From Chitinophagaceae bacterium (GTDB lineage: Bacteria > Bacteroidota > Bacteroidia > Chitinophagales > Chitinophagaceae), in the NCBI GenBank assembly GCA_023251255.1, contig JAHEZD010000021.1, forward strand, positions 1 to 64,000: 64,000 nucleotides of DNA. The letters are read 5' to 3'. The notes beneath the pieces are model-generated. The model ran no database searches, was not told the origin of the DNA, and was given only the letters and a program-made list of their open reading frames with translations. How positions within the stretch are numbered: position 1 is the first letter of the stretch; each line of letters starts with the position of its first letter. Shown here in pieces: positions 2,458 through 58,440 of this stretch. The position numbers and the translations under genes were made by a program.

Positions 2458-3216
2458 TTATGCCTTGTGGTGCCTGTTAAGGTACCAATGGAAACCTGCA
2501 CCGAGGCTGATGCCATTGGTGGCTGTTTTTTCGTCGTAATTGTTGTTGGTGACCGTTACGTTGCTGGTGTTCTTGTTCGTGTTCACCGTAGTGTTGGCCG
2601 TGCCGTTTTTGGAGGAGGTGTAAGCATAACCAAGTGCCACGTCCAGGGCCACTGAAGGGCCGAAGAAGTGTGCAAGCCCTATGCTGGCCCCTGCGTTCCA
2701 GTTGAAGATATTGGACACTTTGCCGTCACTGGTATAGGTGCTGTTCATGTTCTCCCCATAACCGGAAGAAGCCCCGTTGCCCGTGCCCACCGTTGTGTTT
2801 GCCTGCACGTACAGCAGGTTGTTCGACAGGGTATTGTAGAAATAGTACCGTATGAACGGGCCAATGTTAAGGGTGTAGTTGGTGGCATTGGTGTGTGCGG
2901 TAACGGGTGTGTTCACCGTTGAGGTAGTGGTGGCATCTGTTTTTCTGGACGTGATGTTATAGGTGAGGGTTCCGCCAAGCACAAAATGGTTGGTGAGGAA
3001 AACGCCTACCTGCGGCCCGATATTGAAGCCATAGGTCTTGGTGTCCGTGCTCTTGTTGATGTTTGTTCCGCTGGTGTAATCGAGGTTGTCGGACGCGGAG
3101 GAGTAGGAAGTGCTGCCCACTGTGGTACCCAGCAGTACCGTGCCTTTTGCTATTTGTGCATGTGCCGCAGCGGTACACACAATGGTGTACACGGCCGCAA
3201 TGAAGATCTTTTTCAT
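2458..3216 (-). CDS. Outer-membrane beta-barrel protein
   Basis: This 252-residue protein has an N-terminal signal peptide cleaved after AHA (about residue 20). An all-beta body follows, with alternating aromatic/polar strands (for example GPQVGVFLTNHFVLGGTLTY, LNIGPFIRYYF) and Thr/Asn-rich loops. The chain ends in a strand with an aromatic near the end (ISLGAGFHWYLN), as expected for insertion by the BAM machinery. The size and strand count fit the small eight-stranded OmpW/OmpA-like barrel families. Its cargo or partner is unknown. A 154-bp MITE-like repeat lies only 38 bp upstream of the start codon, so its promoter may lie within or beyond that element. Confidence 0.8.
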   Translation of the reverse strand: MKKIFIAAVYTIVCTAAAHAQIAKGTVLLGTTVGSTSYSSASDNLDYTSGTNINKSTDTKTYGFNIGPQVGVFLTNHFVLGGTLTYNITSRKTDATTTSTVNTPVTAHTNATNYTLNIGPFIRYYFYNTLSNNLLYVQANTTVGTGNGASSGYGENMNSTYTSDGKVSNIFNWNAGASIGLAHFFGPSVALDVALGYAYTSSKNGTANTTVNTNKNTSNVTVTNNNYDEKTATNGISLGAGFHWYLNRHHKA

Positions 3217-3254
3217 GGTCTAGATTTTACTGTTTGAAAAAATAAAATATCCGG

Positions 3255-3408
3255 CTATCGGATGAAGGAAAGTAATGAGCATTTGTGCTGTCATACAGAG
3301 CCCCGAATAGTCGGGATTTTCAACCTGTCGAAGTATGAAGAACGAAATCTTAATTCGATAAAAGGTTTCGACTAAGCTCAACCTGACATACTTTCCTTCA
3401 TCCGATAG
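3255..3408 (-). repeat. MITE-like element, copy 1 (154 bp)
   Basis: Perfect 20-bp terminal inverted repeats (CTATCGGATGAAGGAAAGTA at 3255-3274 and its reverse complement at 3389-3408) enclose about 114 bp without an ORF. A second copy at 51.8 kb distance (55051-55205) is nearly identical over its whole length. The interior has the CGACTAAGCTCAACCTGACA string common in Bacteroidota palindromic repeats. A non-autonomous mobile element is the simplest reading; no transposase is present in the window. Confidence 0.8.
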
Positions 3409-3985
3409 TCAAAAAACAAATTTTTAAAACAGCCGGCCGGCATGTCCTAACAGGTAGAACCTTAAACCGGGCAAGGGTTTAAGATGGACAGGTTAAATAG
3501 AAGAATTTAACATGGTTGGACCTATTGAAAATGAAAGGCTGCAGAAGCTGCTTGGGTTGCTTCCTTCGTCGCGGTCGATACCATATTGGATTGACGGCCT
3601 TTTTTTGTCCCTGTTCCGGGCCTTAAGCGTGGCCGGACGCATGCGGAATTGGGGATGGAGTATCTAACCTGTATAAAATTTTGCGTAACGTCAGTTAAGT
3701 GTTCACATCATTGCCCTTTGGCTTCAGCCAAGGGATAATGATATTGGTTGGGGGGTATTGGCTTTAGCCCAAGCCTTACGTTTTGGGCTAGGCCCAAGTA
3801 GTGATAGTTCTTTTCATAGCCCCGACCTGAAGCCCGCCTGAACGCCCGCCCGTGCCAGTTCGGACGGGGATGGGGAACGGGCAGGGATCGGGGCTATGAA
3901 ACCTTTATACCTATTAACGCATTATGCTATTTTGAACTTCAAAAGCGAAGGGAAATTAACCCCACCAACGGATGATGCTTCCTTT
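3409..3985. other. Non-coding spacer with long inverted repeat
   Basis: No gene is visible. A perfect 14-bp inverted repeat, TTTCATAGCCCCGA (3812-3825) and its complement (3888-3901), encloses a GC-rich, partly self-complementary centre. The preceding segment repeats GGCTTCAGCC/GGCTTTAGCC-type motifs (about 3720-3795). The structure may terminate transcripts running leftward from the downstream operon. Confidence 0.55.
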
Positions 3986-14366: not shown

Positions 14367-14418
14367 TCCTGTATATGTTTATGGAAACTTCAGGAATGGG
14401 AAGCAAAGAAGATGCTTC
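14364..14418 (-). promoter_or_regulatory. Expression platform hairpins covering the thiS start
   Basis: In the RNA, two hairpins follow the aptamer. The first is at 14418-14400 (GAAGCA, 7-nt loop, TGCTTC). The second pairs CATTCCTG (14398-14391) with CAGGAATG (14371-14364), a perfect 8-bp stem whose 3' arm contains the thiS ATG. No T run follows either stem, so control at translation start rather than termination is favoured. Confidence 0.65.
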
Positions 14419-14419
14419 T

Positions 14420-14489
14420 ACTTTTTCCCTTCGGCAGCATTATCTGCATCAGGTTCGTAGGGTATGATCTCAGCCTGTAAGGCACCCCT
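14420..14489 (-). ncRNA. TPP riboswitch (THI element)
   Basis: Reading the minus strand, the conserved aptamer blocks are in order: GGGGTGCC, GGCTGAGATCATACCC, GAACCTGATGCAGATAATGC and GCCGAAGGGAA. These match the TPP-binding P2/P3 CTGAGA core and the P4/P5 ACCTGA...ATAATGC core. It lies about 55 nt upstream of thiS, heading the whole thiamine operon, and should lower expression when thiamine pyrophosphate is plentiful. A -7-like TAATTTG at 14517-14511 lies about 22 nt upstream and could be the promoter. Confidence 0.95.
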
Positions 14490-14517
14490 AAAGTTTGAAC
14501 GAATGTATGGCAAATTA

Positions 14518-48649: not shown

Positions 48650-48825
48650 TGGCTCATGTTTGCTTCGCAAACAAGCACATTGACGATGACACCCGATAGC
48701 CATCGGGTTAACCACCAAGACTCAAAGGCACTAAGTTTAAAAAAACGAAGTTTTTTCCCTTTGTGTCTTCGTGTCTTTGTGGTAAAATAAAAAGTATTTG
48801 TTTACAAATGGGTTTCAATATCTTA
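48650..48825. repeat. Repeat family E, copy 3
   Basis: Contains GACACCCGATAGCCATCGGG, ACCACCAAGACTCAAAGGCACTAAG-like sequence (split here for length), AAAAAAACGAAGTTTTTT and CTTTGTGTCTTCGTGTCTTTG, ending TTTGTTTACAAATGGG. Left and right halves form a long imperfect stem. It lies between arsR and the AHSA1 gene. Confidence 0.75.
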
Positions 48826-53905: not shown

Positions 53906-54089
53906 AGAAGTTGTTTAGACTTTTAATTTTACGTGATCGATTTCAATATTTTTTCTAGCGAAACCGCTTTCGACAGGGCTCAAGCTGACAGCTTTTGTCA
54001 TATTGAGCCCTGTCGAAATATTGACAAAAGCGGATTTTGAAAAAAATGCCATTTAAAAGCTACTTTTCTAAAAAGTCTAAACAGCTTCT
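53906..54089. repeat. MITE-like element C with internal REP hairpin
   Basis: Imperfect 19-bp terminal inverted repeats (AGAAGTTGTTTAGACTTTT at 53906-53924; complement at 54071-54089 with one mismatch) enclose 146 bp without a gene. Inside, TTTCGACAGGGCTCAA (53968-53983) and its exact complement (54003-54018) form a 16-bp stem. The ends resemble those of family B (AGAAGCTGTTTAAATT). Confidence 0.7.
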
Positions 54090-54145: not shown

Positions 54146-55036
54146 TTACCATTCCATTTCTCCTGTGTTTACTTTTGCACCTATTTGCAAAGCTGTTTCA
54201 AAAGTCAATGTTGGATATTTTGTTTTTAAAGCGGTCATTAAAGCTGCTGAAGTTTGGTTGGTTTTCAACGCCTCTTCGTAAAATTGGATATAGTTTTTTG
54301 TATGTATTACTGCAGTCAAATCAAATGCTGATGCTGACTTTGCATGGGCAGGAACCACAATTGTTGGGTGCAATGATTCAATTTTGTCCAACACAGTTAA
54401 CCATTGTTTACGTGCCTCTGCAGTTTGTGCATCTGCCATCCAAAGATGGAATGTGGTGCCAAAAATATTGATGCCCCCTACAACTGCTTTGATCGAAGGT
54501 ATCCAGACAAAGGTTTTGGACGGGAATTCTTCCAGGCCAATGACCTCCAATTTTTGGCCTTCCAATTCAATGCTGCTGCCTTTTAAAACTTGTGGTAACA
54601 CAACATTGGAGGTTATGGCTTTGCCCAATCTTCCGCCCCAAATATCCAATTTCTTTTGAGCCGTTGCTTTAATGGATGCTACTGTTGCTGGCGATGCATA
54701 CGCTGTAACTTCCGGAAAGTATTTTTTGAATACTTCTAACCCGAAATAGAAATCAGGGTCTGTGTGGGATACATAGATAGCCGTTAATTTTTTGCCGGAA
54801 TTCCTGATTTCCTGTGCTACTTTTTCGGCATCTGCCAGGGTAAATTGAGCGTCAATTAAAACGGCATCTGTTTTTCCCGATACGATTACAGATGCCACGC
54901 CAAAACTGTTTTCTGATGCGTTGTAAACTTGCAGTTTTAAATTGTTTGCTTCAATAACCTTGAAGTCCTGTGCTTGTGCTTCCATTTTCAATAAGATTAA
55001 GGTGGTTAAGAATACTGTTGAAATAACTTGTTTCAT
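54146..55036 (-). CDS. Exported metallo-beta-lactamase-fold protein with altered metal motif
   Basis: This 296-residue protein has signal peptide MKQVISTVFLTTLILLKMEAQAQ (ATG 55036 chosen over an upstream frame start). The MBL fold is seen in AVLIDAQFTLADAEKVAQEI, LTAIYVSHTDPDFYFGLEVFKKYFP, VIGLEEFPSKTFVWIPSIKAVVGG and TIVVPAHAKS. The metal motif HxHxDH is changed to H91-T-D93-P-D95-F96, losing two of the usual histidines. It may bind one metal, use other ligands or act as a non-classical hydrolase. A MITE-like element ends 14 bp upstream of the start codon. Confidence 0.85.
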   Translation of the reverse strand: MKQVISTVFLTTLILLKMEAQAQDFKVIEANNLKLQVYNASENSFGVASVIVSGKTDAVLIDAQFTLADAEKVAQEIRNSGKKLTAIYVSHTDPDFYFGLEVFKKYFPEVTAYASPATVASIKATAQKKLDIWGGRLGKAITSNVVLPQVLKGSSIELEGQKLEVIGLEEFPSKTFVWIPSIKAVVGGINIFGTTFHLWMADAQTAEARKQWLTVLDKIESLHPTIVVPAHAKSASAFDLTAVIHTKNYIQFYEEALKTNQTSAALMTALKTKYPTLTFETALQIGAKVNTGEMEW

Positions 55037-55050
55037 TTTATTGTTTTTGA

Positions 55051-55205
55051 CTATCGGATGAAGGAAAGTAATGAGCATTTGTCGCTGTCATACAGAGCCC
55101 CGAATAGTCGGGATTTTCAACCTGTCGAAGTATGATGAACGAGATCTTAATTCGATAAAAGGTTTCGACTAAGCTCAACCTGACATACTTTCCTTCATCC
55201 GATAG
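55051..55205 (-). repeat. MITE-like element, copy 2 (155 bp)
   Basis: Nearly identical to 3255-3408, with the same 20-bp terminal inverted repeats (here extended by one A/T pair to 55050-55206). It sits directly upstream of the MBL-fold gene in the same orientation relative to that gene as copy 1 has to the beta-barrel gene. No ORF. Confidence 0.8.
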
Positions 55206-55292
55206 TTAGTTTATTGTTTTTAAATGATGGCGCAAAAGTGCTATCATGCCATGCTTAAAAACATTGAACAAGTTCAATAAATGAGACCAACC

Positions 55293-55874
55293 CTATCTTT
55301 TACTGGAAATTTTGTTTCTTATTTTACTTAAGAATTCGTGACTGATGCCCAAGTAAGCGGCTACCTGAAGATTGGAAAGCCGTTGATGGAGCTGAGGATA
55401 TTTTTCGATAAAATCAAGGTAGCGCTGGTCGGCAGTTTTGCCCAGGTTGTCGATCATTCTTCTTTGCAGGGCAACATGCGTTTTTTGCGTCATTATCCTG
55501 AACAACTTTTCTATCTGGGGCAAATTTGTATAAGCAAATTCTTTGTCCTTTTTTGAAATTAAAAGCACTTCACTGTCTTCCAATGCCTCAATAAAAAGTT
55601 GTGATGGGGTTCCATTGGTAAAGCTGTCAATATCTGTGATCCACCAATTTTCGATGGCAAAATAGAGTACCTGCTCCCCTCCATTTTTGTCAATATGGTA
55701 CACCCGGAAAATCCCTTTGGTAACAAAACCTTCAAACTTGCACACTTCGCCCTCCCTTAATAAAAAGCCCTTTTTTTTAATTGACTTTTGTTGAAATAAA
55801 CCGCAAAAGTCTTCCATTTCTTTGTCCGAAAGGGAGAGGTGTTTGCTTATGTTATGCTTTAAAAGTGCTGTCAT
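55293..55874 (-). CDS. Crp/Fnr-family transcriptional regulator
   Basis: The 193-residue protein has an N-terminal cyclic-nucleotide-like jelly roll (LLREGEVCKFEGFVTKGIFRVYHIDKNGGEQVLYFAIENWWITD) and a C-terminal HTH-crp (TADQRYLDFIEKYPQLHQRLSNLQVAAYLGISHEFLSKIRNKI). The EGExC pattern without the classical cAMP-binding Arg is usual in the Bacteroidota group that responds to unknown signals. It is the gene just upstream of the MBL-fold gene on the same strand, so it may control it. Confidence 0.92.
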   Translation of the reverse strand: MTALLKHNISKHLSLSDKEMEDFCGLFQQKSIKKKGFLLREGEVCKFEGFVTKGIFRVYHIDKNGGEQVLYFAIENWWITDIDSFTNGTPSQLFIEALEDSEVLLISKKDKEFAYTNLPQIEKLFRIMTQKTHVALQRRMIDNLGKTADQRYLDFIEKYPQLHQRLSNLQVAAYLGISHEFLSKIRNKISSKR

Positions 55875-57027: not shown

Positions 57028-58236
57028 CTAAATAGGCTCCTTTGGGTTTTGGGCCTGGGGTATAAACTTCGCATACATAATAACTGCCAACAGTACAATA
57101 CATGTAGCTGTGGCATACAATATACTTGGGCTATAAAAATAGATGGTAGCTGCACCCAGTGGAACGAGCATATTATTGGCCGATTGCAAGCTTTGGTTCA
57201 CGCCCTGCAATTTCCCCTGTTTGCTTTCCTGAACTGATTGGGATAATTTTCCATTGTAGGTTGGGTCAAATAAACCCTCGCCAACAATGATGCATATTAC
57301 TGCAGCTACAATTACCACCACGGAATGTATATAGATGCTGGCCAGGATGAATGCCAAACCGGTTCCAAGGCCCAGTAAACCAGCTATTCCAATATTCCTT
57401 TCATTAAAACGCTTCAATAACCAGGGCAATAATACTGCCCGTGAAACAACTTCGCAGATACCCACCAGCGTAAGCAAACTACCAATAATGGCCGGTCCCC
57501 ATTGATAAATATCTTTCAGGAAAATGATGAAATTAAACTGGAAAATACCCAGGCCTGCATAAAAAAGCACGCCGAGCAGGAGCAGTAATTTAACGCCTTT
57601 CACACTGAACATATCCTTGAAATGTGAAAAGGTATTGAAGCTGCCCAAGGTTAAATGTTTGGTCCTCTTTTCGGGAGGCAAGGATTCGGGCAACAGGAAA
57701 TATACAGCCAACCCGGAAAGGGATATCAATGCGGCAGTTACAAAGAAAGGCAGTCCAAGTGCCATGCTTCCCAACAATCCGCCCAGTGCAGGGCCTCCCA
57801 ATTTTCCTATGCCCATAGCAGAACCGATATAGCCAAACCATTTGGTCCGTTGCCCAGGTTCGGTGGTATCGGATATATAGGCAAATAAGGTACTGATGTT
57901 TCCGGCTGTAAGACCATCAATCATACGTCCCAGGAAAAGTATCCATAATGCTCCTCCAATGCCAAATAGAACATAGCCTATTGCAGAACCCAGTAAACTA
58001 ATGAGCAGGATATTTTTTCGCCCGTACCGATCGCTCAATGCACCAAAAACAGGTGCAGCAAAAAAAGTACAAGCTGCAAATACGGACATGAGCGCACCCA
58101 TACCAAAAACAACCTGCTGAGCGGGGAGGTATTTGCCTACTAAAAAGGGGAGAAGGGGAAGTACCACTGCCATCCCAATGGAATTCATCAGCACGATGCC
58201 TATGATGATCCACAGTTTGTTTTTTTTCGGTTTCAT
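57028..58236 (-). CDS. MFS efflux transporter (tetracycline/DHA1-like)
   Basis: The 402-residue permease has 12 predicted helices. The start at ATG 58236 (MKPKKNKLWIIIG) is preferred to a TTG at 58248. The loop 2-3 motif is GALSDRYGRKNILLISLLGSA (motif A), helix 4 has GRMIDGLTAGNISTLFAYISD, and helix 5 carries GxxxGPALGGLLG-type GIGKLGGPALGGLLG, the antiporter motif of drug/H+ antiporters. The sequence resembles TetA(class A/B/C)-like permeases. A remnant of a FAD-dependent monooxygenase lies just upstream, hinting at an older efflux plus modification locus. Substrate unknown. Confidence 0.88.
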   Translation of the reverse strand: MKPKKNKLWIIIGIVLMNSIGMAVVLPLLPFLVGKYLPAQQVVFGMGALMSVFAACTFFAAPVFGALSDRYGRKNILLISLLGSAIGYVLFGIGGALWILFLGRMIDGLTAGNISTLFAYISDTTEPGQRTKWFGYIGSAMGIGKLGGPALGGLLGSMALGLPFFVTAALISLSGLAVYFLLPESLPPEKRTKHLTLGSFNTFSHFKDMFSVKGVKLLLLLGVLFYAGLGIFQFNFIIFLKDIYQWGPAIIGSLLTLVGICEVVSRAVLLPWLLKRFNERNIGIAGLLGLGTGLAFILASIYIHSVVVIVAAVICIIVGEGLFDPTYNGKLSQSVQESKQGKLQGVNQSLQSANNMLVPLGAATIYFYSPSILYATATCIVLLAVIMYAKFIPQAQNPKEPI

Positions 58237-58315
58237 TTTTACATTCAATGATTGTTTGACTAACTATTGTATGAAGGGAAGTATTGAAGTTCTTGATATC
58301 ATACCGGGCAACAAA

Positions 58316-58440
58316 TGTTTGCTTCGCAAACAAGCTGCCGATAGCTATCGGCATTGACCCTACCTGCCGGTAAAGGCGGGATGACACCCGATAGCCATCG
58401 GGTTAACCACCAAGACCCAAAGGCACTAAGTTTGGCCATG
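58316..58440. repeat. Repeat family E, partial copy 4
   Basis: Carries TTTGCTTCGCAAACAAGC, CTACCTGCCGGTAAAGGCGG, GACACCCGATAGCCATCGGG and CACCAAGACCCAAAGGCACT, then stops abruptly inside the monooxygenase remnant. The insertion appears to have cut that gene after about 38 codons. Confidence 0.7.

Follow-up and report, generated by a model that had tools for sequence, protein, structure and literature searches.

Two copies of a palindromic element in the window

This locus raises the question of what a short palindromic element is doing just upstream of a start codon: whether it is mobile, what might move it and the hairpins inside it, and whether its position matters to the adjoining gene. 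The original prediction, made from the window (the whole 64,000-nt stretch of DNA analyzed), described a MITE-like element in two copies. Both are present where it placed them, at 3255-3408 and 55051-55205, and are nearly identical (98%, with few positions differing); both have the perfect 20-bp terminal inverted repeats (TIRs) ascribed to them. The distances to the start codons were also as claimed, 38 bp for the gene at 2458-3216 and 14 bp for that at 54146-55036. The family is called M1 here, and these two copies, both of its subfamily A, are A1 and A3. The M1 copies and adjoining features of the window are:

2458-3216, minus strand: OMP beta-barrel gene downstream of A1
3255-3408, plus strand: M1 copy A1, subfamily A, TIRs at 3255-3274 and 3389-3408
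3289-3336, plus strand: left REP-like hairpin of A1, split by a 23-nt palindromic insert (CCCGAATAGTCGGG...)
3363-3388, minus strand: right REP-like hairpin of A1, TGTCAGGTTGAGCTTAGTCGAAACCT
54146-55036, minus strand: metallo-beta-lactamase-fold gene downstream of A3
55038-55045, plus strand: left 8-bp target duplication of A3, TTATTGTT
55051-55205, plus strand: M1 copy A3, subfamily A, TIRs at 55051-55070 and 55186-55205
55086-55133, plus strand: left REP-like hairpin of A3, with the palindromic insert
55160-55185, minus strand: right REP-like hairpin of A3
55211-55218, plus strand: right 8-bp target duplication of A3, TTATTGTT, a perfect duplication
55293-55874, minus strand: gene for a cNMP-binding domain protein, on the other side of A3
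58261-58309, plus strand: third M1 copy, decayed, left end only

The TIR 20-mer, CTATCGGATGAAGGAAAGTA, occurs exactly at 3255, 3389 (minus strand), 55051 and 55186 (minus strand), while shuffled sequences gave a mean of 0 matches (n = 100); there is a further match, with 3 mismatches, at 58264. An MFS transporter gene, again leftward (57028-58236), starts about 25 bp from the decayed third copy, which lies upstream of it. With a length of 154-155 bp, corresponding to at most 51 codons, M1 cannot encode a transposase. The whole element folds strongly (z -6.9 and -7.9 for the two window copies). An ATG within A3 would give the lactamase-fold gene a 14-codon in-frame extension (55037-55078; ORF 54146-55078).

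Copy number and distribution of M1

A search of the whole window genome (G000; 6.11 Mb in 188 contigs) for the terminal repeat found 31 two-ended M1 copies, dispersed and with conserved ends, as well as one-ended remnants. They fall into subfamilies A (mostly with the 23-nt palindromic insert), B, and C, with one copy, in contig C57, too short to place. The ends read ACTGACTATC[C]GNATGAAGGAAAG..., a pattern also written TGACTATC..ATGAAGG. The subfamily B end has 38 matches (3 for the reversed pattern), and, with as many as 3 mismatches allowed, the A/C end has 84 (34 for the reversed pattern). Five subfamily A copies are 95.7-98% identical to A1 and have different flanks. Of 136 first-look candidates, 40 were scored.

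Two of the 10 genomes searched in the genus have M1, the window genome and that of a sister species (G002), in which copies are fewer and more decayed. Among 394 genomes of the family, ends at up to 2 mismatches were found in 24: there are 34 in the window genome and 8 in G002, and the remaining 22 genomes have 1 or 2 matches each, not above the reversed control pattern. Of 59 relatives, 4 had matches to a longer M1 query; in G004 and G008 these were weak and confined to the hairpin part. An exact scan of a contig collection returned UBA1930 and three single matches in unrelated organisms, and viral contigs gave no matches. Neither the hairpin 13-mers nor the TIR 13- and 14-mers were found printed in the literature searched.

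Target duplications and the search for a transposase

The flanks of the two-ended copies carry a footprint of insertion. In a fixed register, five bases outside CTATC at both ends and exactly 8 bp long, the two flanking sequences agree at no fewer than 7 of the 8 positions in 19 of the 31 copies, and perfectly in 14 (permutation mean 1.7, maximum 8; 5000 permutations; one-ended remnants are left out of this count). The same flank test at lengths of 5-7 or 9-11 gave 0 to 7 of 31. The duplicated target is AT-rich, about TAANNNTA. The other 12 copies fall below 7 of 8 in this register, and 8 of the 31 stay below the threshold even with a 1-nt shift. A1 is among the 12: its flanking 8-mers (3242-3249 and 3414-3421) agree at only 4 of 8 positions, a figure that a 1-nt shift raises to 6, and A1 thus lacks a clean target duplication.

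With AT-rich 8-bp duplications on either side of 19 of the 31 copies, M1 is a genuine MITE, and the reading first given to the two window copies is borne out by the dispersal, the ends and the duplications alike. DDE transposases leave target duplications of this kind, and we infer that the enzyme that moved M1 was probably of this type.

No transposase with the same ends was found in the window genome or in G002 with the four Pfam models searched (DDE_Tnp_1, ISL3, IS1595, and Y1; PF01609, PF01610, PF12762, and PF01797). Pairs of M1 ends 1-3 kb apart, at up to 3 mismatches, included no autonomous partner among the matches listed. Two DDE_Tnp_1 matches in the window genome were considered as partners and set aside: one, in contig C98, is a fragmentary gene flanked by other inverted repeats, and the other, in C43, is weak, riddled with stops, and adjoins a Y1 gene. 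Likewise, two distant pairs of ends of a second family, M2 (described below), at C103:13638-14599 and C8:26928-27631, enclose no transposase-like ORF by eye. A search for an empty site at the lactamase-fold gene found no match to this gene in the nine further genomes from the genus, of which one is 80% complete.

The hairpin pair inside M1

The interior of M1 consists of two head-to-head hairpins with their tags outside, each of the form TGTCA-stem-GAG-loop-CGA-stem. The pattern used to extract such hairpins fixed the tag (C/T-GTC), the GAG, the CGA, and a 5-nt loop, and left the stem free; since it fixed all but the stem, only stem pairing is independent evidence. Pairing is well above that of shuffled stems, both in the 38 distinct hairpins of the window genome (80%; shuffles mean 55%, maximum 64%) and in 27 distinct hairpins from other Bacteroidota (88%; shuffles mean 67%, maximum 74%). 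The stems also covary: for 28 hairpins hand-picked for variety from these 65, the covariation score was 0.560 vs. 0.127, with none of 500 shuffles as high, and it fell to 0.06-0.10 when the partner was slid by one column. Two of the five measures applied did not separate the hairpins from shuffles in this way, the number of pairs in which both sides change (equalled or exceeded in 412 of 500 shuffles) and the number of further pair types (119 of 500).

Within this set of 28 the tag is TGTC in 26 and CGTC in 2, the pattern having required C/T-GTC. The first stem position is paired in 13; the second is G-C in 11, C-G in 7, U-A in 7, and U-G in 2.

The hairpins extend well beyond M1. Of 198 Bacteroidota genomes, 53 contain the loop sequence TGAGCTTGTCGAAG, and the window genome has it 55 times; its reversed control gave single matches in 12 genomes. 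In one of the other genomes (G484), hairpins with this loop form dimers with the tags outside, mostly with the tag CGTC; no end repeats were seen by eye around the dimers of this or other genomes. Across 424 kb (the window and 18 further stretches) there are 13 strict hairpins, and none in the reversed sequence. Eight lie between M1 or M2 ends, two in an M4 copy (see below), and three in no recognized frame, so that bare hairpins and dimers exist as well.

Hairpins of this kind are themselves interrupted in places. GC-rich palindromes such as CCTGCCTGCCGGCAAAGGCAGG occur at the same hairpin point across subfamilies (M1 copies in C70, C63, C8, and C49, a variant in C29, and M2 elements), as though other palindromes had repeatedly targeted the hairpins. 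REP-like hairpins are also broken up, at about TGAG^CTTGTCGAA, by longer repeats (TGTTTGCTTCGCAAACA ... GTCATTGGCAGC) at the following places:

C29:48437-48799
C155:14807-15215
C155:15981
C23:57007
window, 58300-58440
window, near 48657

These longer repeats have 15 start contexts and 7 loosely matched end contexts; the start list was filtered for an upstream hairpin half, and therefore gives no unbiased rate.

Other element families with the same kind of hairpin

Similar hairpins are found inside elements with quite different ends. Two of these families are represented in the window:

3680-3695, minus strand: one M2 end, ACTGACGTTACGCAAA, 1 mismatch
53908-54087, plus strand: M4 element with ends AAGTTGTTTAGACTTTT and AAAAGTCTAAACAGCTT and two REP-like hairpins, adjoining the 3′ end of the lactamase-fold gene

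M2 has the ends CTGATGTTACGCAAA, of which there are 196 genome-wide at up to 2 mismatches (12 in the control), outnumbering those of M1. The 25 M2 elements used for sizes and duplications, of about 100 implied by the 196 ends, are 122-299 bp long. Their target duplication is 7 bp, perfect in 10 of the 25 (permutation mean 1.1, maximum 5; 5000 permutations) and matching at 6 or more of 7 positions in 20, vs. 21% in mismatched pairs, a background that arises because the target itself is biased.

M3, with ends GGTGGTGACYCAGTTTGAA, is represented by one clear and one decayed copy. M4 has three two-ended copies, that in the window (53908-54087) and those at C155:14807-15215 and C43:84064-84242; its ends had 11 matches, vs. 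1 in reversed sequence, within the 555.9 kb fetched. No clear target duplication was seen at the window copy. With M4 at its 3′ side and A3 at its start, the lactamase-fold gene has an element on each side. A single further element, M5, has an end score that only equals the maximum of its cross-paired control, and is not claimed as a family.

Alignments among the M1-M5 ends score no more than 11. The hairpins of the families share a core, and the right hairpin is nearly identical in M1 to M3 and in one M4 copy (GGTTTCGACAAGCTCAACCTGACA), with a spacer between paired hairpins that varies from family to family. The tags are outside in M1, M2, and M3. In the window copy of M4 the hairpins (53965-53990, minus strand, and 53996-54021, plus strand) have their tags inward, and are thus tail-to-tail.

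Spread of the hairpin pairs

The explanation that we consider best, and quite probable, is that M1 is a MITE whose REP-like hairpins are passengers on several transposition systems. A transposase, probably of the DDE type, would recognize the M1 ends and duplicate 8 bp of an AT-rich target; this enzyme would be absent from the assembly, or unrecognized in it. Each new insertion of M1 would copy its hairpin pair along, and the presence of hairpins of the same kind within unrelated ends would mean that several transposition systems have spread them in this manner. M1 copies that are 95.7-98% identical have different duplications, which shows that hairpins and ends were copied as one, and we infer such co-mobilization to be the route of spread. 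The pair may first have entered each frame through movement of its own or through recombination. As the same kind of hairpin is framed by ends that duplicate 8 bp and by ends that duplicate 7 bp, the best reading is that it rides on at least two transposition systems. Most of the evidence for hairpins as passengers comes from one genome. That REP dimers with TGTC or CGTC tags are passengers in general, carried within the ends of unrelated DDE elements and copied by whichever transposase acts on these, is a broader proposal that we put forward tentatively.

As a second possibility, the hairpin pairs may have moved themselves, by some REP-mobilizing activity, into the centers of palindromic elements that were already there, the MITEs being targets first and carriers only later. 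There is some precedent for such nesting, in that the part of Di Nocera et al. (2013, PMC3733652) drawn on here describes, in A. variabilis and in H. neapolitanus, longer palindromes that contain REP dimers. The further palindromes nested at fixed hairpin points in the window genome would fit this order of events, as would the dimers without visible end repeats in other Bacteroidota. One argument against it is that no M1 or M2 element free of hairpin traces was among those read; the short M1 copies at C57:26253, C66:23889, and C150:62713 look by eye like internal deletions. A second is the near-identity of hairpins among copies with different 8-bp duplications, which points to spread as one unit, at least recently.

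A third argument concerns the Y1 (IS200/RAYT-like) transposase genes. The window genome has three of these (C49:53930, C182:1573, and C43:134074), each with its own, different short repeats. A REPtron arrangement, with the gene flanked on both sides by an M1-type hairpin, was found for none of the three; a lone hairpin match lies about 210 bp 3′ of one gene, and the other two have none within about 1.5 kb. On these grounds we regard self-movement of the hairpin pairs as possible and rather doubtful.

Insertion sites and possible effects on genes

The original prediction held that the element may insert preferentially at starts or change expression of the adjoining gene, and that it has one orientation with respect to it. 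Orientation is indeed the same for the two window copies, but genome-wide it is mixed, with 9 elements in the same orientation as the gene and 8 in the opposite one.

Distances to genes were counted for 32 copies (the 31 two-ended ones and the window remnant, with copy A7 scored as not near a start), using genes called by a home-made codon-usage script that misses some genes. Seventeen of the 32 are within 60 bp of a called start. This is more than the 25.2% of other intergenic sites (p = 0.0007); compared with motif-matching intergenic sites (1060 in 424 kb, with a motif score at or above the median), of which 36.8% are equally near a start, the excess is not significant (p = 0.066), and preferential insertion at starts is not upheld as a strong effect. 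The excess thus mostly reflects the AT-rich target, beyond which there may be a small bias toward starts. Gene ends are as marked, with 15 of 32 copies nearby vs. 23.8% of motif-matching controls (p = 0.005), so that the elements favor gene boundaries in general. Nine copies are near both a start and a gene end, and nine near neither. None of the 32 lies wholly within a called gene; A7 is overlapped by 46 bp. In short, M1 is found near gene boundaries, starts included, mainly since these are AT-rich and non-coding.

Signals through which the element could act on its neighbors were sought in the window copies. No promoter of sigma-70 or Bacteroidota type was found inside either, and the TANNTTTG box is absent from both and from 24 aligned copies; there is a promoter-like site at 55219-55247 (0.8 expected), outside A3. 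Overlapping the left end of A1, a stem that resembles a terminator, with T-rich sequence after it (3263-3249, minus strand), faces the beta-barrel gene; it is weak, with 0.3 expected from shuffles. At gathering scores, Rfam gave no match in the M1 copies of the window. Its sole match in the window is a TPP riboswitch at 14408-14499 (minus strand; 73.6 bits).

These results bear on the idea that the elements are portable regulators that prefer start codons and act on the downstream gene as a hairpin leader, a terminator, or an alternative start. All three window copies are 14-38 bp upstream of leftward starts, the 17 of 32 found genome-wide exceed random intergenic sites, and both the in-frame upstream ATG in A3 and the terminator-like site in A1 could be read in this light. 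Against this, 36.8% of AT-rich intergenic controls themselves lie near starts, gene ends are close to 15 of the 32 copies, the orientation is mixed, and no promoter was found inside, making this idea improbable. That M1 is a static, non-mobile palindromic repeat or RNA hairpin, kept at gene starts for a regulatory role, would suit its strong folding and the closeness of 17 of the 32 copies to a start codon (60 bp at most), but is contradicted by the 8-bp duplications and sits badly with the 9:8 orientation, the non-significant start excess over AT-rich intergenic sites, the equal closeness to gene ends, the presence in only two of the genus's 10 genomes searched and the lack of a promoter box in the copies, and is very improbable indeed.

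Relation to known systems

M1 resembles bacterial MITEs in being short and non-coding, with TIRs in the 15-30 bp range and many intergenic copies; short target duplications are another feature of bacterial MITEs that M1 has in common with them. MITEAba12 is reportedly another bacterial MITE. RUP, NEMIS, Nezha, and others are among those listed in the portion of PMC3733652 consulted. Unlike these, M1 has as its core a covarying pair of REP-like hairpins that is also found within unrelated ends, and a partner IS was not found.

The hairpins, for their part, resemble CGTC-type REPs, for which no dedicated transposase was known in 2013 and which have Bacteroidetes among their phyla, according to the sections of Di Nocera et al. 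(2013, PMC3733652) used here. The description given in those sections has an unpaired CGTC tag, often TGTC, a palindromic stem, a loop of 4-5 nt, and a 3-bp CCA tail. The likeness includes the palindromic stem and, by our own reading, a stem length of about 8 once the G-A positions are included; the TGTC or CGTC tag and the 5-nt loop agree as well, both having been fixed by the extraction pattern. The head-to-head dimers with tags outside seen in M1, M2, M3, and G484 are also as described for CGTC-type REPs; the window copy of M4 differs. Not every defining feature agrees with that description: complementary AT residues do not regularly occupy the first and second stem positions here (the first is paired in 13 of 28), and transposon ends that duplicate 7 or 8 bp surround the hairpins.

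The closest parallels to this nesting are the REP dimers in long palindromes of A. variabilis (GTAG-15) and H. neapolitanus (CGTC-1), again from the part of PMC3733652 drawn on here; as in those two species, REP dimers here are nested in long inverted repeats. In each of those species, however, that part of the source describes one frame and mentions no target duplications (PMC3733652), whereas in the window genome there are four or more distinct frames, and for two of them the duplication length was measured.

REPINs and RAYT systems offer another comparison, as mobile REP doublets similar to the hairpin pairs found here. No fixed 8-bp duplication is known from RAYT-type mobilization, and unlike the genes of RAYT systems, the three Y1 genes here are not flanked by pairs of M1-type hairpins.

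The possibility that a broad spectrum of transposases moves CGTC elements is raised in the same portion of PMC3733652, and the window genome supports this idea. Where repeats lie just upstream of start codons, their position may simply mark AT-rich targets. Hairpin pairs inside at least four sets of ends make the question of what moves CGTC REPs directly testable, and their presence within unrelated mobile elements may explain how hairpins with no known mover have spread.
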